Below, one piece after another: positions 5,307 to 28,821 of a stretch of 64,000 nt of DNA. The stretch is from assembly GCF_001425025.1 (NCBI RefSeq), contig NZ_LMDE01000009.1:63047-127046 (forward strand), written 5' to 3'. Every line of letters starts with the position of its first letter. Position 1 is the stretch's first letter. The stretch comes from Nocardioides sp. Root122 (GTDB lineage: Bacteria; Actinomycetota; Actinomycetes; Propionibacteriales; Nocardioidaceae). The notes beneath the pieces are model-generated. The model did not search any database. It had not been told where the DNA came from and saw nothing but the letters and a program-made list of their open reading frames with translations. The position numbers and the translations under genes were made by a program.

Positions 5307-6470
5307 GTGACCGACCATCCGAAGCAGGGGCCGCTGGCCGGCCTGCTCGTCGCCGACCTCTCCCGGATCCTGGCCGGCCCCTACGCCACCATGCTGATGG
5401 GCGACCTCGGGGCCGAGGTGGTCAAGGTCGAGGGCCCGCAGGGCGACGACACCCGCACCTGGCAGCCGCCGGTGCGCGACGGCGTGTCGACGTACTTCCT
5501 CGGGGTCAACCGCAACAAGCGCTCGATCGCCCTCGACTTCAAGGACGCCGACGACCTCGAGGTCGCGCGCAAGCTGGTCGCGCGCGCCGACATCGTGCTG
5601 GAGAACTTCCGCCCGGGTGCACTGGCTCGCTTCGGCCTCGACTACGCGAGCGTGTCCGAGGCCAACCCCGGTGTCGTCTACGCCTCGATCAGCGGCTTCG
5701 GCAGCGGTGAGCAGGGAGCGAAGCTCCCCGGCTACGACCTGATCGTCCAGGCCATCAGCGGGCTGATGAGCCTCACCGGCGACCCCGAGGGCGAGCCCTT
5801 CCGCGCCGGCATCTCCGTCTTCGACGTGATGGCGGGCCTCCACGCCACCATCGGCGTCCTCGCCGCGGTCCAGGACCGCCACCGCACCGGCCGCGGGCAG
5901 CACGTCGAGGTCAACCTGCTCTCCTCGGCGCTGTCCGGGATGGTCAACCAGTCCAGTGCGTACGTCGCCGGCGGCACCGTGCCGTTCCGGATGGGCAACT
6001 CCCACCCCAGCCTGTTCCCCTACGAGCCGCTGCCGTGCTCCGACCGCGACCTCATCGTCACCGCCGGCAACAACGGCCAGTTCCGCAAGCTCGTCGAGGT
6101 CCTCGGCGTCCCCGAGCTCGCCGACGACCCGCGGTTCGCGCGCAACGAGGACCGCACCGCCAACCGCGACGAGCTCCGCCCGCTGCTCGTCGAGCGGCTC
6201 GCGTCCCGCACCGCCCAGGAGTGGTTCGAGGACATCATCGGCGCGGGCGTGCCGTGCGGCCCGATCAACACCGTCGACGGGGGAGTCGCCTTCGCCGAGC
6301 AGATCGGCCTCGACCCCGTCGTCACCGTCGGCACCGGCGACGCCGCGCTGCCCGGCGTGCGCCACCCCATCCGCTTCTCCGACGCCGAGGCGCGCTACGA
6401 CCGGCCGCCGCCGGCGCTGGACGAGCACGGTGCCGAGATCCGTGCCTGGCTCGACGAGGAGATGCCATGA
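5307..6470 (+). CDS. CaiB/BaiF (type III) CoA-transferase
   Basis: 387 aa from GTG at 5307, supported by GGAGG at 5297-5301 with a 5-nt gap; the open frame extends far upstream but only this start has a ribosome binding site. Typical features are the N-terminal VADLSRILAGPYATMLMGDLGAEVVKVE region, the NRNKRS segment, and a GYD motif before IVQAISG that supplies the catalytic Asp of the family. These enzymes move CoA from an acyl-CoA to a carboxylic acid. It is the first gene of a six-gene coupled operon, so it probably activates a dicarboxylate or tricarboxylate from ring cleavage for the lyase encoded next. Family confident; acid substrate unknown. Confidence 0.92.
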   Translation: MTDHPKQGPLAGLLVADLSRILAGPYATMLMGDLGAEVVKVEGPQGDDTRTWQPPVRDGVSTYFLGVNRNKRSIALDFKDADDLEVARKLVARADIVLENFRPGALARFGLDYASVSEANPGVVYASISGFGSGEQGAKLPGYDLIVQAISGLMSLTGDPEGEPFRAGISVFDVMAGLHATIGVLAAVQDRHRTGRGQHVEVNLLSSALSGMVNQSSAYVAGGTVPFRMGNSHPSLFPYEPLPCSDRDLIVTAGNNGQFRKLVEVLGVPELADDPRFARNEDRTANRDELRPLLVERLASRTAQEWFEDIIGAGVPCGPINTVDGGVAFAEQIGLDPVVTVGTGDAALPGVRHPIRFSDAEARYDRPPPALDEHGAEIRAWLDEEMP

Positions 6471-7270
6471 CCACCCCCGAACGCCCGACCTCCCAGTACC
6501 CCACGTCTCTGGGCACCTCCACCGCCGACGAGATCAGGCTGCTCGGCCAGGACCTCACCGCCGACCTGATGGGCGAGGTCGGCTTCGGCGAGCTGGCCTT
6601 CTGGCTGGTCGCGATGCGTCGGCCCACCCCGTCGGAGACACGGCTCTTCGAGGCCGTGCTGGTCGCGCTCGCCGACCACGGGTTCACCCCGACGGCGATC
6701 GCGGCGCGGCTGACGTACCTCTCGGCGCCCGACTCGCTGCAGGGGGCGCTCGCCGCCGGGCTCCTCGGCGGTGGGTCGCGCTTCCTCGGCGTGACCGAGG
6801 ACTGCGGCGGCTACCTCCACGACGTCGTCGTCGCCACCGACGACCTGCCCGCCGACGACGAGGGCTTCGACGCCCTCGCGCTCGACGCCGTACGACGCAC
6901 CAAGGAGGCCGGCCGCTACGTGCCCGGCCTGGGGCACCCGGTGCACAAGGAGCGCGACCCGCGCACGCCCGTGCTGATGCGCATCGCCGAGGAGGAGGGA
7001 CTGCTCGGTCCCCACCTGCGGCTCTTCGCGGCCATCGGCCGGGTCCACCCCGAGGTGCTGGGGCGCACCCTGCCGCTCAACGGCGCCGGCGTCTGCGGTG
7101 CGGCACTGGCCGACCTCGGCCTCCCGGTCGAGATGCTGCGCGGCTTCGCGCTGCTGGCCCGCGCCGCCGGGCTGCTCGGGCAGCTCGCCGAGGAGCGCCG
7201 GCGCCCGATCGGCATGGACGCCTACCTGAGCGTCGACCGCAACGCCGTCTACGTCGACCCCGAGAGCTGA
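6467..7270 (+). CDS. Citryl-CoA lyase-like / citrate synthase-fold protein
   Basis: 267 aa, with start overlapping the CoA-transferase stop (ATGA). Aligns with the short citrate-synthase-fold proteins annotated as citryl-CoA lyase. The GLGHPVHKERDPRT motif is the family His region (equivalent to citrate synthase His320). The segment where the family normally has N-x-D (catalytic Asp) reads LNGAG, and the usual first catalytic His motif is not obvious (LLGGGSRFLG), so the chemistry may differ from citrate synthase. Paired with a CoA-transferase, the likely role is Claisen-type cleavage of a CoA-activated acid into acetyl-CoA or another acyl-CoA plus an oxoacid. Fold fairly sure; reaction inferred. 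Confidence 0.8.
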   Translation: MTTPERPTSQYPTSLGTSTADEIRLLGQDLTADLMGEVGFGELAFWLVAMRRPTPSETRLFEAVLVALADHGFTPTAIAARLTYLSAPDSLQGALAAGLLGGGSRFLGVTEDCGGYLHDVVVATDDLPADDEGFDALALDAVRRTKEAGRYVPGLGHPVHKERDPRTPVLMRIAEEEGLLGPHLRLFAAIGRVHPEVLGRTLPLNGAGVCGAALADLGLPVEMLRGFALLARAAGLLGQLAEERRRPIGMDAYLSVDRNAVYVDPES

Positions 7271-16192: not shown

Positions 16193-17221
16193 TCAGGTGT
16201 TGGCGTTGCGGGCGTCGACCCGCCACGTGGCGTCGTCGACGGCGTAGTCGTCGGCGAGGTTGACCGCAGTGCAGACGTGGTTCGGCACGACCCGCACGCG
16301 GGTGCCGCGGGGTGCGTCGAATCCGGTGACGGTGGCGTGGTGCTCGGACAGGGCGGTGATCACGGCGTCGGGGTGGTCGAGGAACCGGCCGTGGCCGGTG
16401 GCCCACGACGACCGGTCGGCCCCGAGGACCTTGCTGCCCGCGTCCAGGACCACCCGGTCGGGGTAGTGACCGACGACGGTCGCCACGACCGTCAGGGCCA
16501 CCTGCTCGGGAGCGATCGTCCCGAGCTCCCACTGCTGCGCGTCGCCGAAGACGTACACGCCGGGGCGGACCTCCGTGAGCACCTCGCCGCGGGCGTAGGC
16601 GACGGACGGCGTGGAGCCGCCGCTGACCGTCGGGCACGGGATGCCGGCCGCGACGAGGACGTCCCGGGCCGCAGCGAGCTCGCGCTGCTCGTCGGCGGCC
16701 GCGGAGGCGCGGGCGTCCGGTGAGTAGGAGTGGCCCGGGAAGGTGAACACGCCGTCGACCAGCAGGCCGACCTCCGTGGCGGCGGACGCGACGGCCACCA
16801 CGTCGCCGGCCGGCACGCCGCTGCGGTGGTGGCCGCTGTCGACCTCGACGCGGACCCGCAGCCCCGCGTCGGCGAGCGGCGCGAGGCGGCGTACGGACTC
16901 GACGGAGTCGACACCGACCGCCACGGCCGCGCGCTCGAGCACCCCGCGCAGCCGGCCGGCCCGCTCGTCGTCCATCCAGAGCGGGTAGGCGATGACGAGG
17001 TCGTCGCACACCGCGGCGAACACCTCCGCCTCCGAGACGGTGGCGACGGTGAGCCCCACCGCACCGGCAGCGAGCTGGAGACGGGCGACCTCGAGCGACT
17101 TGTGGGTCTTGGCGTGCGGGCGCAGCGCGAGTCCCGCGGCACCCGCGGCCCGCTGCATCGTGTCGATGTTGCGCTCGAGGACGGCCCGGTCGATCCGGAC
17201 GTGGGGTGTCGGCCTGCTCAT
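16193..17221 (-). CDS. D-threonine aldolase / D-serine dehydratase-like PLP enzyme
   Basis: 342 aa. Fold type III (alanine-racemase-like) PLP enzyme: the Lys in RPHAKTHKS (about residues 35-43) binds PLP, and PNHVCTAVN near the C-terminus supplies the His/Cys metal site characteristic of D-threonine aldolase and eukaryotic-type D-serine dehydratase. It would cleave D-3-hydroxy amino acids to glycine plus an aldehyde, or deaminate D-serine, in the cytoplasm. It lies 45 bp downstream of the alpha/beta hydrolase gene on the same strand and may be cotranscribed. Aldolase versus dehydratase cannot be decided by eye. Confidence 0.87.
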   Translation of the reverse strand: MSRPTPHVRIDRAVLERNIDTMQRAAGAAGLALRPHAKTHKSLEVARLQLAAGAVGLTVATVSEAEVFAAVCDDLVIAYPLWMDDERAGRLRGVLERAAVAVGVDSVESVRRLAPLADAGLRVRVEVDSGHHRSGVPAGDVVAVASAATEVGLLVDGVFTFPGHSYSPDARASAAADEQRELAAARDVLVAAGIPCPTVSGGSTPSVAYARGEVLTEVRPGVYVFGDAQQWELGTIAPEQVALTVVATVVGHYPDRVVLDAGSKVLGADRSSWATGHGRFLDHPDAVITALSEHHATVTGFDAPRGTRVRVVPNHVCTAVNLADDYAVDDATWRVDARNANT

Positions 17222-19270: not shown

Positions 19271-19960
19271 TCAGCAGCCGGTCGCGGCGTAGGCCTCGGT
19301 GAGCTGGGCCTCGGCCGCGGTGAGGTAGCGCTCCAGCGTCTCGGCCGCGCCCGCGACGTCGCCGGACTCCAGGAGGTCGAGGATGCGGCGGTTCTCGGCG
19401 AGATAGGGCTCGTGGAAGGTCCGCGGCGCCGCCATCACGTGGAAGACCAGGCGCAGCTCGGCGAGCACGTGCCGCATCGACTCCTCCACCCGGGGGCTCC
19501 CCGCGAGGGCCGCGACCGCCTGGTGGAAGCGCATGTTGGCCGTGCCGACGTCGACCCACCGCCCGCCGGCGGCCGCGGACTCGCCCTCCTCCACCGCACG
19601 GCGTACGTCGTCGAGCGGGGCGTCGGCCGAGGTGGTGCGCAGCACCCCGCCCTCGACCAGTCGCCGGAAGCGGTAGAGGTCGTGGACGTCGTCGACCGTG
19701 AGGCGGCGGACGAAGACGCCGCGGTTGAACTCGTGGACCAGCAGCCGTTCGTGGGCCAGCAGGCGGAAGGCCTCGCGCAGGGTGTTGCGGGAGACGCCGA
19801 GCGCGACGCCGATGTCCTCCTCGGAGAGCCGGGTGCCCGGTGGCAGCCGACCCTCGGTGATGCGCGAGCGCAGGATCTCCGCGACCCGGCCGGCCGTGCT
19901 GGCACGGGTCAGGGCCGCCCGCTCCCCGGAGAGCTCCTCGACCCACGCGCTCGATGCCAC
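19271..19960 (-). CDS. GntR family (FadR subfamily, FCD) transcriptional regulator
   Basis: 229 aa. N-terminal winged helix (about 15-85; SEEDIGVALGVSRNTLREAFRLLAHERLL) and C-terminal FCD domain (about 100-220) with His residues of the type that bind metal and a carboxylate effector. It is divergent from the oxoprolinase operon, whose promoter holds a perfect 15-bp palindrome of FadR-subfamily type. The likely role is repression of the operon until 5-oxoproline or a related acid appears. In Bacillus the corresponding locus uses an IclR-type regulator (KipR), so regulator type differs here. Confidence 0.93.
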   Translation of the reverse strand: MASSAWVEELSGERAALTRASTAGRVAEILRSRITEGRLPPGTRLSEEDIGVALGVSRNTLREAFRLLAHERLLVHEFNRGVFVRRLTVDDVHDLYRFRRLVEGGVLRTTSADAPLDDVRRAVEEGESAAAGGRWVDVGTANMRFHQAVAALAGSPRVEESMRHVLAELRLVFHVMAAPRTFHEPYLAENRRILDLLESGDVAGAAETLERYLTAAEAQLTEAYAATGC

Positions 19961-19986: not shown

Positions 19987-20016
19987 TTGACAGATTGTTG
20001 AACAATCCCGCACTCT
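19987..20016 (+). promoter_or_regulatory. Promoter of the oxoprolinase operon with embedded GntR operator
   Basis: TTGACA (19987-19992), 18-nt spacer, CACTCT (20011-20016). The spacer contains the perfect palindrome GATTGTT-G-AACAATC (19993-20007), whose core TTGTTGAACAA fits the FadR-subfamily pattern T-N-GT-N3-AC-N-A. A bound repressor would occupy the space between -35 and -10. Confidence 0.75.
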
Positions 20017-20063: not shown

Positions 20064-21329
20064 ATGGATCAGCAGGCGGATCAGCAGGCGAACCAGCAGG
20101 CGAACCAGCAGGCGGACCACCACGCGGCAGGTACGGCCGCCCGCGCCGGTCGAGGTGCCCTCGTCGGGGCGATGTTCCTCATGGCGACCAGCGCGATCGG
20201 TCCCGGCTTCATCACCCAGACGACCGTCTTCACCGACCAGCTCGGGGCCGCCTTCGCCTTCGCGATCCTGGTCTCGATCGTGGTGGACGTCGCCGTTCAG
20301 CTCAACGTGTGGCGCGTCATCGGCATCGCCGGCATGCACGCACAGGACCTGGCCAACAAGGTGGCCCCGGGTGCCGGCTACGTGCTGGCCGCCCTCGTGG
20401 TCCTCGGCGGCCTGGTGTTCAACATCGGCAACATCGGCGGCACGGCGCTGGGCATGAACGCGATGTTCGGCATGGACGTCAAGCTCGGCGGCACCATCTC
20501 CGCGGCCATCGCGATCGCGGTCTTCCTCAGCCGTCGCGCAGGCATGGCGATGGACCGGATCGTGGTGGTGCTCGGCATCGTGATGATCGCGATGGTGCTC
20601 TACACGGCGTTCGTCTCCGACCCGCCCGTCGGCCAGGCCCTGAAGCAGAGCGTGCTGCCCGACGAGGTCGACTTCCTCATCATCACCACCCTCATCGGCG
20701 GGACGGTCGGCGGCTACATCACCTACGCGGGAGCCCACCGGCTCGTCGACTCCGGCATCACCGGTCCCGATCAGGTCTCGCAGATCAGCCGCGGCAGCGT
20801 CACCGGCATCCTGGTCACAGGCGTGATGCGCGTGCTGCTCTTCCTCGCGGTCCTCGGCGTCGTCGCCGGCGGCGCCGCGCTGGCGGCCGACAACCCGCCC
20901 GCCTCGGCCTTCCAGCACGCTCTCGGCGACGCCGGCGTCCGGGTCTTCGGCGTCATCCTCTGGGCGGCGAGCATCACCTCGGTCATCGGCGCGTCCTACA
21001 CCTCGGTGTCCTTCCTCAGCGGACTGCTCAAGGGCAACGAGCGCCGCCGCAACTACGCGGTGGTCGGCTTCGTCGCCCTGTGCGCCGCCCTCTTCCTGGT
21101 GCTGGGCAAGGCACCCGTCACGCTCCTGGTCCTCGCCGGCGCCCTCAACGGGCTGATCCTGCCCGTCGGTCTCGCCGTCATCCTCTGGGTCGCCGCCCGG
21201 CGCACGCACGACCTCCTCGGCGGCTACCGCTACCCGCGGTGGCTGCTCGCGATCGGTGCCGCCGTGTGGGTGCTGACCGTCTACCTGGGCTGGAACTCGC
21301 TGGGCGGCATCGCCGACCTCTGGGGCTGA
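20064..21329 (+). CDS. NRAMP-fold transporter (YcsG-like, without metal motifs)
   Basis: 421 aa from ATG at 20064 with AGGA upstream. About 11 hydrophobic segments and GPGFITQT in TM1 place it in the NRAMP superfamily. However, the DPGN motif of TM1 and the MPH motif of TM6, which bind divalent metal in true NRAMPs, are not seen: the equivalents read [16 protein letters not shown] and [11 protein letters not shown]. This matches the YcsG-like branch that sits with 5-oxoprolinase genes. As first gene of the operon it probably imports the operon's substrate or a related acid; this is inference. The N-terminus has four tandem 12-bp repeats (20067-20114) encoding DQQA/NQQA. Confidence 0.88.
20067..20126 (+). 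repeat. 12-bp tandem repeat in the 5' end of the NRAMP-like gene
   Basis: Two copies of GATCAGCAGGCG followed by two of AACCAGCAGGCG, then a decayed fifth unit GACCACCACGCG. The unit is in frame and encodes D/N-Q-Q-A, extending a polar N-terminal tail before TM1. Slippage would add or remove four residues without a frameshift. Confidence 0.9.
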
Positions 21330-21343
21330 CGGGAGTGCCTGAC

Positions 21344-22126
21344 ATGACGACCGGCCCCACCAGCATCGACCTCAACGCCGACCTCGGCGAGGCCTTCGGC
21401 CAGTGGACCCTCGGCGACGACGACGGGCTGCTCGAGGTGGTGACGAGCGCCAACGTCGCCTGCGGCTTCCACGCCGGTGACCCCACCGTGCTCCGTCGCG
21501 CCTGCGGCCAGGCGGCCGAGCGCGACGTGGCCATCGGGGCGCAGGTCGGCTACCGCGACCTCGCCGGCTTCGGGCGTCGCTTCATCGACGTCGCCCCCGA
21601 CGAGCTCACCAACGACGTGCTCTACCAGATCGGTGCACTGGAGGCCTTCGCCCGCGTCGCCGGCACCCGGGTGCGCTACGTCAAGCCGCACGGCGCGCTC
21701 TACAACGCGATCGTCCACCACGAGGCGCAGGCCACCGCTGTCGTCGACGCCGTGCTCCGCTACGACGCGACGCTCCCCGTCCTGGGGCTCCCCGGCTCGG
21801 TCTTCCTCGCCCTCGCGGCCGACGCCGGTCTGACGACGGTCGCCGAGGCGTTCGCCGACCGCGCCTACACCGCCGAGGGCACCCTGGTCTCGCGACGGGA
21901 GGAGGGTGCGGTGCTGCACGACGCCGAGGAGGTGGCCGCGCGCTGCGTGCGGATGGCCACCCACGGAGAGGTCGAGGCGATCGACGGTTCGCCGGTCGCG
22001 GTGCGGCCCGCCTCGCTGTGCGTGCACGGCGACAGCCCGGGTGCGGTGGCGATGGCCGCCCGCGTCCGCGCGTCGGTGGAGCAGGCCGGGGTGCGGGTCG
22101 CCCCCTTCGTCGGCGGCTCGGTCTGA
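21344..22126 (+). CDS. pxpA: 5-oxoprolinase subunit A (LamB/YcsF family)
   Basis: 260 aa, GGGAG 8 nt upstream of the ATG. LamB/YcsF family: opens with [14 protein letters not shown] and carries [12 protein letters not shown] and KPHGALYN, all diagnostic. PxpA works with PxpB and PxpC to hydrolyse 5-oxo-L-proline (pyroglutamate) to glutamate with ATP in the cytoplasm. Its TGA overlaps the pxpB ATG (TGATG). Complete subunit set and gene order here make the assignment firm. Confidence 0.95.
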
Positions 22127-22737
22127 TGCGTCTGCTCCCGTGCGCCGACTCCGGCCTGCTCGTCGAGCTGGCCGACCTCGACGAGGTGCTCGCGCTCTAC
22201 GCCGAGCTGGTCGACGACCCGCCCCCGGGCGTGGTCGACCTCGTCCCGGCCGCCCGCACCCTGCTGCTGCGGCTGGACCCCGCCGGCGCCGACCTCGCCG
22301 AGGTCGAGCGTGCGGTGCGCGAGTCCCGGCCGCGGCGCGGGGCGCGGCCCGACGTGGGCGAGGTCGAGATCCCGGTCGTCTACGACGGCCACGACCTCGC
22401 GGAGGTCGGCGAGCTGACGGGCCTCGGCGCCCGTGGCGTCGTCGAGGCCCACACCGGCCAGGAGTGGACGGTGGCCTTCGGTGGCTTCGCGCCGGGCTTC
22501 GGCTACCTCGTCGGCAGCGACGAGCGCCTCCACGTGCCGCGGCGTGCCACCCCCCGCACCAAGGTCCCGGCGGGAGCCGTCGGCCTGGCCGGGGAGTTCG
22601 CCGGCGTCTATCCGCGTGAGTCCCCGGGCGGCTGGCAGCTGCTGGGTCACACGCCGCTGCGGATGTGGGACCTCGACCGCGACCCGCCGGCACTGCTCCT
22701 GCCCGGCACCCGGGTCCGCTTCGTGGAGGCCTCGTGA
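22126..22737 (+). CDS. pxpB: 5-oxoprolinase subunit B (KipI family)
   Basis: 203 aa, start overlapping the pxpA stop. KipI-type (allophanate hydrolase subunit 1) domain with [13 protein letters not shown] (about 117-129), [18 protein letters not shown] and [16 protein letters not shown]. In the PxpABC complex it pairs with PxpC. Bacillus KipI also inhibits the sporulation kinase KinA, which has no meaning here because no such kinase system is indicated. GTGA overlap with pxpC indicates tight coupling. Confidence 0.95.
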
Positions 22738-23603
22738 CCGCGCGCGCCCTCGAGGTCGTCGCCACCGGCCCGCTCGCCACCATCCAGGACCTCGGGCGGC
22801 CGGGTCTCGCCGCCTTGGGCGTCGGCCGTTCGGGTGCGGCCGACACGACCTCGATGGAGCTCGCCAACCGGCTCGTGGGCAACGAGCCCGGCACGGCATG
22901 CGTCGAGGTCACCTTCGGGGGACTGGAGGTGGTGGCCCACGGCGGCCTCACCGTCGCGCTCGCGGGCGCACCGTGCCCGATGAGCGTCGACGGCCGGCAG
23001 GTGGCCCCCCTCGCGGTGGTCTGGGTGCCCGACGGTGCGACTCTCCGGCTGGGCGCGCCCACGTCCGGCCTGCGCAGCTACCTCGCCGTGCGCGGCGGCC
23101 TCGACGTGCCGGCGGTGCTCGGCTCGCGCTCGACCGACACGCTGTCCGGCGTCGGTCCTGCCGTGCTCGAGCCCGGCCGGCGGCTGCGGGTCGGGCGCGC
23201 CACCCGACCCCTGCCCGGGGTCGACGTCGTGCCCGTGCGGGTCCCCGACCACGGCGACCTGTGGTTGCGCGTGGCGCGGGGGCCGCGCGCCGACTGGTTC
23301 ACCGACGAGTCCTACGACGCCCTGCTGGCGACCCCCTACGAGGTCACCGCCGAGAGCAACCGGGTCGGCATGCGACTGAGCGGGGCGACGCTGGAGCGGT
23401 CCCGCGACGAGGAGCTGCCGAGCGAGGGCATGGTGCCCGGTGCCCTGCAGGTGCCGCCGTCGGGGCAGCCCACGCTGTTCCTGGCCGACCACCCGGTGAC
23501 AGGCGGCTATCCCGTCGTCGCCGTCGTGGTCCGCGCCGACGTCGGGCTCGCCGCGCAGGCTCGCCCGGGACAACAGATCCGATTCCGCAGCGACGCGAGG
23601 TGA
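22734..23603 (+). CDS. pxpC: 5-oxoprolinase subunit C (KipA / biotin-dependent carboxyltransferase-like)
   Basis: 289 aa, GTG start inside the pxpB stop (GTGA). KipA/allophanate-hydrolase subunit 2 type domain: TIQDLGRPG near the start, [22 protein letters not shown] and the [10 protein letters not shown] segment are diagnostic. Despite the carboxyltransferase family name it forms the 5-oxoprolinase complex with PxpB and PxpA. No biotin carrier is encoded nearby, supporting the oxoprolinase reading. Confidence 0.94.
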
Positions 23604-23608
23604 GCCCC

Positions 23609-24397
23609 ATGACGATCGACGACCCCTCCCACCTGTCCCCACACGAGGCCCGAGCCCGGTTCCGTGCCGGGCTCCGGGTGCCGACCGCCGGGTGGTCGGC
23701 CGGCTGGACGCAGGCCAACCTGATCGCGGTGCCGCGCGAGGTGGCGTACGACGTGCTGCTCTTCGCGCAGCGCAACCCGAGGCCCTGTCCGGTGCTCGAC
23801 GTGACCGAGCCGGGCGCCACGAGCAGCCCCCTGTTCTCCGGCGACCTGCGCACCGACCTGCCGGCCTACACCGTCTACGAGCACGGCGAGCTCGTCGCGG
23901 AGGTCGACGACGTCACCGACCTCTGGCGCGACGACCTCGTCGCCTTCCTGGTCGGGTGCAGCTTCACCTTCGAGGCCGCGCTCCTCGAGGCAGGGGTGCC
24001 CGTGCGGCACGTCGAGGCGGGCAGCAACGTGCCGATGTACCGCACGTCGGTCGAGTGCCGTCCGGCCGGAGCGCTCTCCGGTCCGCTGGTCGTCTCGATG
24101 CGTCCGGTCCCCGCGAGCCAGGTCGCGACCGCGGTCCGTGTCACGTCGCGCTATCCCGCCGTGCACGGCGCGCCGGTCCACGTCGGCGACCCGCGGGCCC
24201 TCGGCATCGCCGACCTCGACCGGCCCGACTTCGGGGAGCCCGTGGAGGTCCGTGCCGGCGAGGTCCCGGTCTTCTGGGCGTGCGGCGTCACCCCCCAGGC
24301 GGCCGTGATGAGGTCGCGGCCGGCGTTCGCGATCGGCCACGCGCCCGGCCACATGGCGATCACCGACGCCCGTGACAGCGACTACCTGGTGCCGTGA
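23609..24397 (+). CDS. DUF1445 putative hydro-lyase (YcsI-like)
   Basis: 262 aa, ATG 5 bp after the pxpC stop, with GAGGTGA overlapping that stop. DUF1445 family: [26 protein letters not shown] near the N-terminus, a Cys in [18 protein letters not shown] (around residue 115), and [12 protein letters not shown] with a second conserved Cys near residue 230. The family is annotated as putative hydro-lyase; a related domain occurs in eukaryotic D-glutamate cyclase proteins, so a role in handling 5-oxo-D-proline/D-glutamate is plausible. The same gene sits in the Bacillus ycsFGI-kip operon. Confidence 0.9.
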
Positions 24398-24403
24398 GGG
24401 GAC

Positions 24404-25813
24404 TCAGGAGTCGAAGCCGAGCCCGGCCCGGTCGAGGGCGCGGAGGAACAGGTTGCGCCGGCCCTGGCGGTGGTCGGCCCGGTCGAGCGACCAGCGGGTG
24501 AGGTTGATGCCGAGCGACGCCAACGGCTCGGGCGGGAACGGAAGGGGTCGCTCGCGCACCATCCGCAGCTCGGTGCGCTCCGTCTGCTCGCCGGCCAGCA
24601 GGTCGAGCAGCACCTCGGCGGCGAAGCGCGTCGCGCCGACCCCGAGGCCGGTGAAGCCGGCGGCGTGCGCGACCCGGCCGCCGTGGGTGAGCCCGTAGAA
24701 CGCGGTGAACTGCGTGCAGGTGTCGATCGCGCCCGCCCAGCGGTGGCTGAACCTGACGTCCTCGAGCTGCGGGAAGGTGGCCAGGAAGTGCGACGCCAGC
24801 CGTGCGTGGCTCTCCGGGCGGTCCTCGTGCCGGGCCCGCACCTTTCCGCCCCTCGGGTAGATCGCGTCGTAGCCGCCCCAGAGGATGCGGTTGTCGCTGG
24901 TCAGCCGGGAGTAGTGGAACTGGTTGGCCAGGTCGCCGAGGCCCTGCCGGCCCGCCCAGCCGACCGACGCCAGCTGCTCGGCCGTCAGCGGCTCGGTCAT
25001 CAGGACGTAGTCGTAGACCGGGACCGTCATCAGCCGGTTGCGGCGCAGCAGCGAGGGGAACACGTTGGTCGCCAGCACCACGTGGTCGGAGGTCACCACG
25101 GCGCGGTCCGTGTGCACCTCGACCCGGCCCACCGACGTACGCAGCTCGGTGACCGCCGAGTGCTCGTGGACCTCCACGCCGAGGTCGGCCGCGACCCGGG
25201 CGAGCTCCAGGGCGAGTCGCGCCGGGTGCACGAGGGCGTTCTGGTCGGGCTCGAGCAGACCCGCGAGGAAGAGGGGGCTGTCGATCTCGGCGCGGACCGC
25301 CGGTCCGTCGAGGACGTGCGGTCCCTCGCCCAGCTCGTCGACCTGGTGCTCCTCGACCGCGACCGAGAGCGCCCCGGTCCGCTCCCACTCGCACGCCAGG
25401 CCGAGGTCGCGGACGTCGGCCTCGAAGGCGTCGAGGTTGGCGCGTCCGAGGCGGTCGAGGACGTCGTGCTCGTCGGGCCACCGGCTGCGCCCGTTGTCCT
25501 CGCCGTGGGTGATCGAGGCCTCGCAGAAGCCGCCGTTGCGGCCCGATGCCGCCCACCCGACGGTGCGTGCCTCGAGCAGGACGACCCGGCGCGCCGGGTC
25601 GCGGCGCTTGGCGTGCACGGCCGCCCACAGGCCGAGGTAGCCGCCGCCGACGACCGTGAGGTCGGCCGTCGTCGGTGCGGTCAGCTCGGGGTGGCGGGCC
25701 TCGGCGCCGGCGTCCTCCAGCCAGAAGACCGCCTGCCGGCTGCCCGCGAGGGCGCGCTCCACGACGCGGGGGTCGGGAGCGTTCCGCTCGTAGGCCGTCA
25801 GGTGGGAGGGCAC
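24404..25813 (-). CDS. FAD-dependent amine oxidoreductase (PuuB/DAO-like)
   Basis: 469 aa. DAO-type flavoprotein with the dinucleotide motif VVGGGYLGLWAA (about 55-66), SGRNGGFCE flavin region (about 95) and C-terminal GFTGLGVGATRF. It resembles gamma-glutamylputrescine oxidase and related enzymes that oxidise secondary amines to aldehydes. It is the last gene of the minus-strand transcript mmsA-type dehydrogenase, aminotransferase, oxidoreductase, which faces a PucR regulator. The aldehyde product would feed the aldehyde dehydrogenases of the same cluster. No gamma-glutamylputrescine synthetase is present, so the exact amine is uncertain. Confidence 0.87.
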   Translation of the reverse strand: MPSHLTAYERNAPDPRVVERALAGSRQAVFWLEDAGAEARHPELTAPTTADLTVVGGGYLGLWAAVHAKRRDPARRVVLLEARTVGWAASGRNGGFCEASITHGEDNGRSRWPDEHDVLDRLGRANLDAFEADVRDLGLACEWERTGALSVAVEEHQVDELGEGPHVLDGPAVRAEIDSPLFLAGLLEPDQNALVHPARLALELARVAADLGVEVHEHSAVTELRTSVGRVEVHTDRAVVTSDHVVLATNVFPSLLRRNRLMTVPVYDYVLMTEPLTAEQLASVGWAGRQGLGDLANQFHYSRLTSDNRILWGGYDAIYPRGGKVRARHEDRPESHARLASHFLATFPQLEDVRFSHRWAGAIDTCTQFTAFYGLTHGGRVAHAAGFTGLGVGATRFAAEVLLDLLAGEQTERTELRMVRERPLPFPPEPLASLGINLTRWSLDRADHRQGRRNLFLRALDRAGLGFDS

Positions 25814-25826
25814 GCCGGACAGTGTG

Positions 25827-27182
25827 TCAACCGGCGGCGGCGGTGAGCGCCTCGTCGAGGACGGCCAGCCCCTCGCGCGCCTCCTCGTCGGTGATCGTGA
25901 GCGGCGGCACCACGTGGATCCGGTTGTAGTTGGCGAAGGGCAGCAGGCCGCGCTCCTGGCAGCCCTTCACCACCGCGGCCATCTCGGGGCTGGACCCGCC
26001 GTAGGGCGCCAGCGGCTCGCGCGTGGTCCGGTCGCTGACCAGCTCGACGGCCCAGAAGGCGCCGGTGCCGCGGACCTCGCCGATCCACGCGTGCTTCTCC
26101 GCGAGGGCCCGCAGGCCGGGGCCGATCACCTCGGCGCCGAGCCGGTCGGCGCGCCCGACGACGTCCTCGTCCTCCATCGTGCGAATGGTGGCGACCGCGG
26201 CAGCGCAGGCGAGCGGGTGGCCGGAGTAGGTGAGACCGCCGGGGTAGGTGCGGTGCGCGAAGGTCGCGTGGATCGCGTCGCTGATCGCGACGCCGCCCAG
26301 CGGGACGTAGCCGGAGTTGACCCCCTTGGCGAACGTGAGCAGGTCGGGCGCCACGCCCCCGTGCTCGACGGCGAACCAGCGACCCGACCGGCCGAAGCCC
26401 GACATCACCTCGTCGGCCACGAGCACGATGCCGTGCCGGTCGCAGATCTCCCGGACGCCGGCGAGGTAGCCCGGGGGCGGCACCATGATCCCGGCGGTGC
26501 CGGGGATCGCCTCGAGCACGATCGCCGCGATCGTCGCCGGTCCCTCGAGCGCGACGACCTGCTCGAGGTGCTCGAGCGCGCGCTGGCACTCCTCCGCCTC
26601 GGTGGTCGCGTGGAAGGCGCTGCGGTAGAGGAAGGGGCCGAAGAAGTGCACGGTGCCGGTCGAGCCGTGGTCGCTCGCCCAGCGGCGCGGGTCGCCGGTC
26701 ATGTTCACCGCGAGGTGCGTGCCGCCGTGGTAGCTGCGGTAGGTGGTGAGCACCTTGTGCCGGCCGGTGTGCAGCCGCGCCATGCGTACGGCGTGCTCGT
26801 TGGCGTCGGCGCCGCCGTTGGTGAAGAAGACGTGGTCGAGGTCGCCGGGGGTGTGCGAGGCGATCAGGCGGGCGGCCTCCGACCGGGTGCCGTTGGCGAA
26901 GGCGGGAGCGACGGTGGCGAGGTGCCCGGCCTGCTCCTGGATCGCTGCCACGATGCGCGGGTGCTGGTGGCCGAGGTTGGTGAAGACCAGCTGGGAGCTG
27001 AAGTCGAGGTAGCGCCTGCCGTCACCGTCCCAGACGTGGCTGCCCTCGGCGCGGGTGATCACCATCGGAGTGATCTCCGCCTGGGCGGACCAGGAGTGGA
27101 AGACGTGGGCGCGGTCGAGCTCGTAGGCCCGCGCGGCGTCGTGGGTGCCGGCGAGGTCGCTGGCGATCGTGGTCTCAGTCAT
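25827..27182 (-). CDS. Class III aminotransferase (aspartate aminotransferase family)
   Basis: 451 aa. PLP-dependent fold type I, class III (omega-) aminotransferase. The PLP Lys is in LTFAKGVNSGYVPLGG, the Asp ring-N ligand in LVADEVMSGFGR, and TNGGADANEHAVRMAR is the cofactor phosphate region. Typical substrates are terminal amines such as GABA, beta-alanine, putrescine or taurine with pyruvate or 2-oxoglutarate. Its start overlaps the stop of the upstream dehydrogenase by 8 bp, so the two are coupled. Together they would turn an omega-amino acid into a semialdehyde and then an acyl-CoA. Confidence 0.93.
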   Translation of the reverse strand: MTETTIASDLAGTHDAARAYELDRAHVFHSWSAQAEITPMVITRAEGSHVWDGDGRRYLDFSSQLVFTNLGHQHPRIVAAIQEQAGHLATVAPAFANGTRSEAARLIASHTPGDLDHVFFTNGGADANEHAVRMARLHTGRHKVLTTYRSYHGGTHLAVNMTGDPRRWASDHGSTGTVHFFGPFLYRSAFHATTEAEECQRALEHLEQVVALEGPATIAAIVLEAIPGTAGIMVPPPGYLAGVREICDRHGIVLVADEVMSGFGRSGRWFAVEHGGVAPDLLTFAKGVNSGYVPLGGVAISDAIHATFAHRTYPGGLTYSGHPLACAAAVATIRTMEDEDVVGRADRLGAEVIGPGLRALAEKHAWIGEVRGTGAFWAVELVSDRTTREPLAPYGGSSPEMAAVVKGCQERGLLPFANYNRIHVVPPLTITDEEAREGLAVLDEALTAAAG

Positions 27183-28713
27183 TGCGCGGGAACCCCAGCT
27201 CGAGGCCGCCCTCGGGGCGGTTGGCCGGGTCGATCCACCGGGTGGTGACGACCTTGCCGCGGGTGAAGAAGTGGACGCCCTCGGTGCCGTGGGCGTGGGT
27301 GTCGCCGAACAGCGAGCGCTTCCAGCCGCCGAAGGAGTAGTAGGCCACCGGCACCGGGACCGGCACGTTGACGCCGATCATGCCGACCGTCACGTCGGCC
27401 TCGAAGCGGCGGGCCGCACCGCCGTCGTTGGTGAAGACCGCTGTGCCGTTGCCGTACTGGTTGGCGTTGACCAGCGCCACGGCCTCCTCGTAGGTCTTCA
27501 CGCGGACCACCGAGAGGACCGGCCCGAAGATCTCCTCGGTGTAGATGTCCATGTCGGGAGTGACGTCGTCGAAGAGCGTCGGCCCGAGCCAGAAGCCCTC
27601 CTCGCCACCGCGGGCGGTGACGTCGCGGCCGTCGACCACGACCTTCGCTCCGGCCGCCTCGCCGGAGTCGATGAAGGAGCTGACCCGGTCGCGGTGGGCC
27701 TTCGTGACGAGCGGGCCCATGTCGGCCTCCTTCTCCCCGCCGGTGGCCTCGCGGCCGCCGTCGCCGACCAGGAGGGTGCGGGTGCGATCGGCGATGCGGG
27801 CGACGAGCTCGTCGCCGATCGGGTCGACGGCCACGAGCACGCTGATCGCCATGCACCGCTCGCCGGCGCTGCCGTAGCCCGCGTTGACCGCGGAGTCGGC
27901 GGCGAGGTCGAGGTCGGCGTCGGGCAGCACCACCATGTGGTTCTTCGCGCCGCCGAGGGCCTGGACCCGCTTGCCGTGCCGGCTCGCGGTCTCGTAGACG
28001 TACTCCGCGATCGGGGTCGAGCCGACGAAGCTGATCGCCTGGACCTCGGGGCTGGTGAGGAGCGCGTCGACGGCGGTCTTGTCACCGTGGAGGACGTTGA
28101 AGACACCATCGGGCAGCCCCGCCTCCTGCCACAGCGCGGCGAGCCAGTTGGCGGCGCTCGGGTCCTTCTCGCTGGGCTTGAGGACGACGGCGTTGCCGGC
28201 GGCGATCGCGATGGGGAAGAACCACATCGGCACCATCGCGGGGAAGTTGAAGGGGCTGATGATCCCGACCACGCCGAGCGGCACCCGCTTGGAGTGCACG
28301 TCGACCCCGGTCGAGGCCTCCTCGCTGTGACCGCCCTTGAGCAGGTGGGAGATGCCGCACGCGAACTCCACGACCTCGAGGCCTCGGGAGATCTCGCCCA
28401 TCGCGTCGGAGTGCACCTTGCCGTGCTCGGCGGTGATGATCGCGGCGAGCTCGTCCTTGCGGCTGAAGAGCAGCTCGCGGAAGGAGAACAGCACCTGCGT
28501 GCGCCGGGCCAGCGACGTCGTGCCCCACGCGCCGGCGGCGCGGGAGGCGGAGGCGATGACGTGGGTGGCGTCGGCCTCGCTGGCGAGGGCGACACGTCCG
28601 GTCACCTGCCCGGTCGCCGGGTTGGTCACCTCGGCCCAGCCGGTCGGGGAGCCGGTCAGGCCGGCGCCGTCGACCCAGTGCACGATGTCAACAGTGTCGT
28701 CAGGGAGGGGCAT
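27175..28713 (-). CDS. mmsA: CoA-acylating methylmalonate-semialdehyde dehydrogenase-like
   Basis: 512 aa from ATG at 28713 (CAGGA upstream); the upstream in-frame start at 28794 adds 27 unconserved residues. Aldehyde dehydrogenase fold with the SPFNFPAMVPMWF region and catalytic Cys in GSAGERCMA (around 285-290), the hallmark of the CoA-acylating MmsA branch. It converts (methyl)malonate semialdehyde to propionyl-CoA or acetyl-CoA, with CO2 release. Coupled to an omega-aminotransferase, it fits beta-alanine or beta-aminoisobutyrate breakdown as a branch of polyamine or pyrimidine catabolism. Confidence 0.93.
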   Translation of the reverse strand: MPLPDDTVDIVHWVDGAGLTGSPTGWAEVTNPATGQVTGRVALASEADATHVIASASRAAGAWGTTSLARRTQVLFSFRELLFSRKDELAAIITAEHGKVHSDAMGEISRGLEVVEFACGISHLLKGGHSEEASTGVDVHSKRVPLGVVGIISPFNFPAMVPMWFFPIAIAAGNAVVLKPSEKDPSAANWLAALWQEAGLPDGVFNVLHGDKTAVDALLTSPEVQAISFVGSTPIAEYVYETASRHGKRVQALGGAKNHMVVLPDADLDLAADSAVNAGYGSAGERCMAISVLVAVDPIGDELVARIADRTRTLLVGDGGREATGGEKEADMGPLVTKAHRDRVSSFIDSGEAAGAKVVVDGRDVTARGGEEGFWLGPTLFDDVTPDMDIYTEEIFGPVLSVVRVKTYEEAVALVNANQYGNGTAVFTNDGGAARRFEADVTVGMIGVNVPVPVPVAYYSFGGWKRSLFGDTHAHGTEGVHFFTRGKVVTTRWIDPANRPEGGLELGFPRND

Positions 28714-28806
28714 GGGGTCATCCTGCTCGTCGTACGCCGTCGCGGCGGGTGTCGGATCGTAGGCTTTCGCGGCCTTGCTCGGACACTTCGTCACCCTGCC
28801 GCTGGG

Positions 28807-28821
28807 TAGGCTGCACCGGTG
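28807..28821 (+). promoter_or_regulatory. Leaderless-type promoter of the PucR gene
   Basis: TAGGCT (28807-28812) is followed by exactly 6 nt and then the GTG start (28819), with no purine-rich ribosome binding site. A -10 this close would start transcription at the GTG itself. No convincing -35 is seen. Confidence 0.55.

Follow-up and report, generated by a model that had tools for sequence, protein, structure and literature searches.

The NRAMP-fold transporter of a pxp operon in Nocardioides sp. Root122 and the case for 5-oxoproline as its cargo

Five consecutive genes on the plus strand (20064-24397) of a 64,000-nucleotide stretch of Nocardioides sp. Root122 DNA (contig NZ_LMDE01000009.1, positions 63,047 to 127,046; hereafter the window, to which all positions refer) encode the NRAMP-fold transporter PxpT, the 5-oxoprolinase proteins PxpA, PxpB and PxpC, and a protein of the DUF1445 family. 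The locus is probably a pxpR-pxpTABC operon extended by a DUF1445 gene, in which PxpT imports 5-oxoproline and PxpABC opens it; that the window PxpT carries 5-oxoproline is, as a claim of its own, very probable. This importer reading is well supported yet not new, the operon type having already been described. The window operon belongs to a known system. Over Mn2+ there is a conflict that experiments can address: for close relatives the literature describes 5-oxoproline uptake (PxpT of Corynebacterium glutamicum, YcsG of Bacillus subtilis) versus Mn2+ import (the B. subtilis protein under the name MntG, and MumT of Acinetobacter baumannii). The evidence from sequence, operon and regulator favours 5-oxoproline uptake over Mn2+ import.

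A pxp operon with a PxpR-type operator

In line with the initial annotation, which had placed the transporter at the head of a PxpA/PxpB/PxpC/DUF1445 operon, Pfam profiles identified all five adjoining genes, whose stop and start codons overlap or almost abut. The gene pxpT (20064-21329, 421 amino acids) matches Nramp PF01566 with 86 bits (cut-off 29.8). It is followed by pxpA (21344-22126; LamB/YcsF PF03746, 337 bits over profile positions 1-238 of 239; NF003814, 372 bits, cut-off 226), by pxpB, the ATG of which overlaps the pxpA stop (22126-22737; CT_C_D PF02682, 218 bits; TIGR00370, 149 bits, cut-off 145.55), by pxpC with a GTG overlapping the pxpB stop (22734-23603; CT_A_B PF02626, 301 bits; TIGR00724, 294 bits, cut-off 230) and by the gene of the 262-residue DUF1445 protein (23609-24397; D-Glu_cyclase PF07286, 229 bits; NF003969, 409 bits, cut-off 324). 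PxpA, PxpB and PxpC cover their Pfam profiles almost completely, and each exceeds the cut-off of one NCBIfam model; among the NCBIfam profiles, the PxpC equivalog NF045499 (215 versus 500) and three PxpA equivalogs stayed below theirs. All three pxp genes are complete and contiguous with pxpT. The paper reportedly credited with finding PxpABC is that of Niehaus et al. from 2017.

The interval 20064-24397, as initially annotated, is correct for the five genes but omits the regulatory elements upstream. A pxpR-like gene for a GntR/FCD regulator (PF00392, 57 bits; PF07729, 69 bits) lies divergently on the minus strand (19271-19960), and between this gene and pxpT we found a PxpR operator, AGATTGTTGAACAATCC (19992-20008), which ends 56 bases before the pxpT ATG. 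Compared with the reverse strand of the 17-bp site as published it has one mismatch, and it is the sole match with up to three mismatches in the 64 kb, where 0.01 are expected. Because of the divergent GntR gene and the one-mismatch operator just upstream, we regard the locus as a pxpR-pxpTABC-like system.

The counterpart in C. glutamicum has been described (PMC13274462). Its repressor PxpR binds 5-oxoproline with a dissociation constant of 726 nM as well as the 17-bp operator, and deletion of either pxpT or pxpABC abolishes growth on 5-oxoproline, a defect that was complemented; a B. subtilis relative is likewise genetically needed for 5-oxoproline use, as cited there. Compared through its published gene order and operator, the C. 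glutamicum system shares with the window the divergent GntR gene, the order pxpT-pxpA-pxpB-pxpC and a near-identical operator. The window adds the terminal DUF1445 gene, a term absent from the C. glutamicum paper.

The operator recurs in genomes of the same order as Nocardioides sp. Root122, 40 of 196 of which matched PxpT, giving 39 loci after the window's own was left out. The exact core TTGTTSAACAA is present at 33 of these 39 loci (34 sites in total), each of the 33 having a site no more than 400 bases upstream of pxpT or the GntR gene; at the remaining same-order loci (L165, L187, L188, L192, L194 and L195) the core was not found.

Loss of the metal site and conservation of the operon context

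In canonical NRAMPs, the metal is held by a DPGN motif in transmembrane helix (TM) 1 and an MPH motif in TM6. To compare these positions we aligned 130 distinct PxpT homologues from genomes of the same order, plasmids and named genomes, including the broken copy L195 and L194 with a gap in TM3, with 24 non-PxpT rows, seven of them canonical NRAMPs. DPGN and MPH are present in 7/7 canonical sequences. Among the other non-PxpT rows, that of L001 is an antisense frame, whereas the tree described below contains its correct frame. The window PxpT carries G46-P47-G48-F49 (20199-20210) instead of the former and G216-G217-Y218 (20709-20717) instead of the latter, as the initial annotation had noticed in reporting a transporter devoid of both motifs. 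The change extends throughout the clade and far beyond the window: G46-P47-G48 is found in 130/130 homologues and Asp at the canonical metal position in none, and G216, G217 and Y218 are each present in 129/130, the sole gap being the broken copy. Moreover, the TM3 Asp of all seven canonical rows is replaced by N120 in 125/130 homologues, the TM3 Glu (7/7) by N123 in 130/130, and the TM10 Gln (7/7) by G359 in 130/130. An ordinary Mn2+ transporter with a misread motif was rejected, because the change is fixed across the 130 homologues. The loss of DPGN and MPH in Nramp-related proteins has already been published (PMC12873925, a preprint from 2026).

PxpT did not reach the NCBIfam Mn2+ models MntH (37.9 bits versus 430) and Nramp_1 (31.3 versus 50). 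It thus falls outside the canonical NRAMP (SLC11) proteins by the DPGN/MPH motifs, the acidic residues of the TM3 proton path and the MntH cut-off, and with GPGF and GGTVGGY it also lacks the motifs defined for NRMT Mg2+ transporters, DxxG in TM1 and TxxA/T in TM6 (PMC8806188). The two other NRAMP-family proteins of the same genome, L001 (DDPPG and APW) and L002 (DIGD and TPY), are likewise without canonical DPGN/MPH, and a canonical MntH was not seen among the NRAMP-family proteins found in this genome.

Both the Pfam match and the fold comparison assign PxpT to the NRAMP branch of the LeuT fold (PF01566). The AlphaFold2 model, built from 44 sequences, has a mean predicted local distance difference test score (pLDDT) of 89 and a predicted template-modelling score of 0.85, and predicts helix breaks at residues 45-46 in TM1 and at 216 in TM6. 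Its best fold match is 9a52, a deposited integrative model of YcsG with 48% identity, the site of which is not experimental. The best solved relatives are DraNramp (Z 44.5, root-mean-square deviation 2.5 over 374 residues) and EleNRMT (Z 43.3), ahead of further carriers with this fold, ApcT (Z 33.1) among them; a search against viral models retrieved distant amino-acid carriers only. PxpT thus has the fold (Z 43-45) and the PF01566 match in common with canonical NRAMP/MntH and NRMT proteins, whereas its identity to the DraNramp and EleNRMT structures is only 14-18% and none of the metal-site and TM3 proton-path residues that were compared is kept.

In a tree of 80 sequences, 56 PxpT rows, comprising the window protein and 55 collected homologues with YcsG of Bacillus tequilensis among them, form one side of a branch with a Shimodaira-Hasegawa-like approximate likelihood ratio support of 100. 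This was a quick tree without bootstrap and with long branches flagged, and MumT and L036 were left out. The window transporter groups with YcsG and shares the GPG and GGY motifs of this PxpT/YcsG clade. The 'G-motif 3' group of Nramp-related proteins (PMC12873925), in which a figure legend places MntG as a hypothesised Mn2+ importer, has the lack of DPGN/MPH in common with PxpT; no link to 5-oxoproline was found in this preprint, which was searched for other terms only.

The genomic context of PxpT is conserved as well. It was surveyed in three sets: the 39 same-order loci, nine plasmid loci hand-picked from 168 matching records, and 80 loci of named genomes, the best of 588 confirmed loci as ranked by likeness to a Deinococcus protein and therefore no random sample. 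Of the named loci, 75/80 have a pxp gene in the flanking sequence retrieved, and 68/80 have all three subunits; the corresponding numbers are 39/39 and 38/39 for the same-order set and 9/9 and 9/9 for the plasmids. Within 1.5 kb of PxpT a pxp gene lies at 75/80, 39/39 and 8/9 loci, compared with 0/15 loci of other NRAMP-family proteins. DUF1445 occurs in the flanks of 39/80, 31/39 and 6/9 loci when weak partial hits (L169, L172, L072) are counted, or of 39/80, 29/39 and 5/9 without them. At an Acidaminococcus locus (L130:7001-11191), two PxpT genes flank pxpA and DUF1445. Some pxp operons, for example L068, L070, L071, L119 and L126, contain a biotin carboxylase gene, which the window operon lacks; strong hits were obtained at 8/9 plasmid, 8/80 named and 4/39 same-order loci, and these operons may open lactams in a biotin-dependent manner.

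In addition, we examined 40 loci of the same phylum anchored on DUF1445 (20 of 24 matching genomes and 20 of another 37). Pxp genes lie within 6 kb at 29 of them, accompanied by PxpT at 13, by an MFS carrier without PxpT at six, by a second NRAMP-like clade at three (one also with another MFS protein) and by another MFS protein at one; at six no transporter was recognised. Five loci (L243, L244, L245, L292 and L293) are arranged as GntR, MFS, DUF1445, pxpA, pxpB, pxpC, so that the MFS gene occupies the place of the transporter. Seven MFS proteins tested fit best to models of aromatic-acid or metabolite/H+ symporters, all below the model cut-offs. These findings favour an organic solute as cargo. 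Together with L291, the loci L243-L245, L292 and L293 are pxp operons with GntR, DUF1445 and MFS carriers from which PxpT is absent.

The second NRAMP-like clade emerged from PxpT matches in 10 of 296 genomes beyond the own one: nine of the proteins form one branch apart from PxpT, and the tenth candidate, L036, contains an in-frame stop and was left out of the tree. Their TM1 motif is GPGT, and their TM6 motif VPYN (eight rows) or VTYN (one row). DUF1445 is present in nine of these ten genomes (Fisher p about 2e-10, uncorrected for kinship). The clade may represent another carrier of the NRAMP fold with a similar type of cargo. In further members of the phylum it adjoins DUF1445 with or without pxp genes (L229-L248, e.g. 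L237:5485-7521 and L247:6490-8608).

5-Oxoproline, manganese or another cargo

Taken together, the lost metal ligands, the 5-oxoprolinase operon context and the genetics of relatives in C. glutamicum (PMC13274462) support the initial proposal of a carboxylate or oxoproline importer built on the NRAMP fold.

In the mechanism that we propose, 5-oxoproline entering or forming in the cell would take the GntR repressor PxpR off its operator, and the operon would be transcribed; PxpT, an NRAMP-family member acting as a secondary carrier with the LeuT fold, would import 5-oxoproline, and the ATP-dependent PxpABC would open it to L-glutamate. The metal site of the family (DPGN in TM1, MPH in TM6, the acidic TM3 residues and the TM10 Gln) has become uncharged in PxpT (GPGF, GGY, N/N and G). 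In amino-acid carriers that share this fold, the carboxylate of the substrate is bound at GxG breaks, and the free backbone of the G-P-G break may bind it here. It is quite possible, though we stop short of calling it probable, that the whole PxpT clade including MntG and MumT gave up metals for such a carboxylate site, the Mn2+ phenotypes being indirect, and that the second clade did so separately.

Several observations weigh against the assignment of 5-oxoproline. At five of the 80 named PxpT loci (L112, L113, L120, L129 and L140) no pxp gene is present in the fetched flanks; PxpA is encoded elsewhere in two of these genomes and was not found in three. GPG is also present in the second NRAMP-like clade and therefore is no proof of 5-oxoproline specificity. 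The literature examined yielded no assay in which a PxpT protein took up labelled 5-oxoproline, and the authors of the C. glutamicum study were unable to exclude metal transport by PxpT (PMC13274462). B. subtilis YcsG has been reported as a Mn2+ importer and renamed MntG: overexpression of ycsG raises cell Mn, a triple mntH mntA ycsG mutant was obtainable only when ycsG was present in a second copy, and MntR binds the promoter of the ycsG operon (PMC10448178). Likewise, A. baumannii cells contain less Mn when mumT is deleted, an effect that was complemented (PMC5050338). In two of the genomes without flanking pxp genes, those of Runella (L113 and L120), PxpA was not found at all, and another use of the cargo may apply.

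Metal transport, the finding that the initial annotation had named as contradicting its proposal, is accordingly reported for these relatives, from whole-cell phenotypes of MntG/YcsG and MumT rather than from transport by the purified proteins (PMC10448178, PMC5050338). Conversely, polar effects were not fully excluded in the earlier 5-oxoproline work on ycsG, according to PMC10448178. If PxpT supplied the operon enzymes with Mn2+ while 5-oxoproline entered otherwise, the Mn phenotypes of ycsG and mumT, the MntR control in B. subtilis and the use of MntG as a Mn2+ importer in a second B. subtilis paper (PMC13055313) would be explained, and no canonical Mn2+ NRAMP was found in the own genome that would make a third one needless. 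Yet we consider this highly improbable: none of the 130 homologues keeps the canonical TM1/TM6 ligands, the TM3 acids and the TM10 Gln are replaced, the operator belongs to a 5-oxoproline sensor, MFS carriers replace PxpT beside other pxp operons, and the loss of growth on 5-oxoproline upon pxpT deletion (PMC13274462) likewise speaks against it. If PxpT carried a metal-carboxylate complex of 5-oxoproline and a divalent metal, both published sets of phenotypes would be direct and so reconciled; with all canonical metal ligands gone from the binding region and a metal dependence of uptake unsupported here, this is unlikely. Another lactam or cyclic amide, D-5-oxoproline or D-glutamate as cargo, acted on first by DUF1445 and then by PxpABC, appears improbable. 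The Pfam name D-glutamate cyclase and the occurrence of DUF1445 with a transporter but without pxp genes at 7/40 loci, from which it follows that DUF1445 can work apart from PxpABC, argue for it; against it, pxpTABC of C. glutamicum serves 5-oxo-L-proline in a paper from which the term DUF1445 is absent (PMC13274462), and DUF1445 is not in the fetched flanks of 41/80 named PxpT loci.

If PxpT indeed carries an organic acid, the NRAMP family would not be metal-only, and the conclusions on MntG and MumT as Mn importers would need re-examination. Both proteins closely resemble the window PxpT. YcsG of B. tequilensis (L115), which stands in here for that of B. subtilis 168, is 47.9% identical and carries GPGF and GGTVGGY; its APPV motif starts at residue 171, matching the report for B. 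subtilis MntG (PMC13055313), and the MntH of B. tequilensis has DPGN and MPH. The B. subtilis ycsFGI-kipIAR operon (pxpA-ycsG-ycsI-pxpB-pxpC), read in B. tequilensis L115, has five protein families in common with the window, whereas its gene order is different and YcsG is also named as the Mn importer MntG. MumT of A. baumannii strain X4-300 is 48.5% identical, again with GPGF and GGTVGGY, and has Ser instead of Asn at position 120 while N123 is retained.

In strain X4-300 (NZ_CP064203.1, L298:6931-13135), PxpT, PxpA, DUF1445, a PxpB-PxpC fusion and a biotin carboxylase are encoded in a row. This content matches the published order mumTLUHC, so that the mum genes are arranged as in a pxp operon, and an operon whose order corresponds to 'manganese and urea metabolism' has 5-oxoprolinase content. 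The mum operon (PMC5050338; read here in X4-300 in place of ATCC 17978) therefore has the transporter, PxpA, DUF1445 and PxpB-PxpC in common with the window; it differs in the fused PxpB/PxpC, the extra biotin carboxylase, a LysR-like frame upstream (5858-6586, lacking the start of the profiles) and its assignment to Mn and urea. PMC10448178 had likened it to the ycsG operon. The protein in the place of MumH contains two carboxyltransferase domains and no other Pfam match, which renders the label 'allophanate hydrolase' doubtful. As mumC is needed for urea use (PMC5050338), the variant with biotin carboxylase may do more than open 5-oxoproline; no literature joining mumC with oxoprolinase was found among the matches listed, and one A. 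baumannii paper names pxpA without mention of mumT (PMC11734730). A search of 369 genomes belonging to the same class as an Actinobacillus genome gave MumT-like relatives (E <= 1e-60) in two, G494 and G1017. The latter (L297), which at a GC content of 63% is not Acinetobacter, likewise has the genes for the transporter, PxpA, DUF1445, PxpBC and a biotin carboxylase one after the other, together with a GntR gene that is divergent.

The DUF1445 protein and neighbouring features

The DUF1445 protein belongs to the D-glutamate cyclase family PF07286 by both the profile cut-off and its UPF0317 fold: the model (pLDDT 93) matches the UPF0317 structures 2pif (Z 33) and 3db9 (Z 31). D-glutamate cyclase activity has been described for a vertebrate two-domain protein that combines DUF1445 with DUF4392, either of which may be the active one (PMC5339696); a characterisation or assay of a bacterial DUF1445 protein was not found in the literature searched. 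The probable target of the protein is a compound closely related to the substrate, D-glutamate or 5-oxo-D-proline; that it handles the other enantiomer, as initially proposed, is a possibility only. It may also have a separate job, since pxp genes are missing within 6 kb at 11/40 DUF1445-anchored loci, where the second NRAMP-like clade (four loci), an MFS protein (three) or neither (four) was found.

Three cysteines, C60, C117 and C225, are invariant in 32/32 DUF1445 sequences, and in the model C117 and C225 are each predicted at a strand-to-helix turn. These two positions led us to look for a racemase fold, and they would suit a racemase or cyclase that works with two cysteines and no cofactor and supplies PxpABC with the D form. 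We regard this as rather doubtful: among the matches listed, no Asp/Glu racemase was found and the sole clear match beyond the UPF0317 structures is the NrpR-like 3nek (Z 10.5 over 165 residues), although the absence of a racemase from these matches is not conclusive.

As for the start of pxpT, a longer reading frame from a TTG at 19995 is disfavoured because it would overlap the operator, and the ATG at 20064 was retained. The N-terminus encoded from there (20064-20120) is a low-complexity repeat, QQANQQAN..., absent from the other eight proteins of one alignment; the true start is therefore unsure, and the codon may lie further in.

The guanine and cytosine content of the window is 67-76% in 2-kb steps. 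A few kb from the operon, a gene on the opposite strand (16193-17221) encodes a D-amino-acid enzyme with Alanine-racemase-N and D-serine dehydratase-like domains (PF01168, PF14031). Downstream, the minus-strand genes at 24404-28794 for a flavin adenine dinucleotide-dependent oxidoreductase, a class III aminotransferase and a methylmalonate-semialdehyde dehydrogenase, together with a PucR-type regulator at 28819, are a separate amine/amino-acid breakdown cluster.

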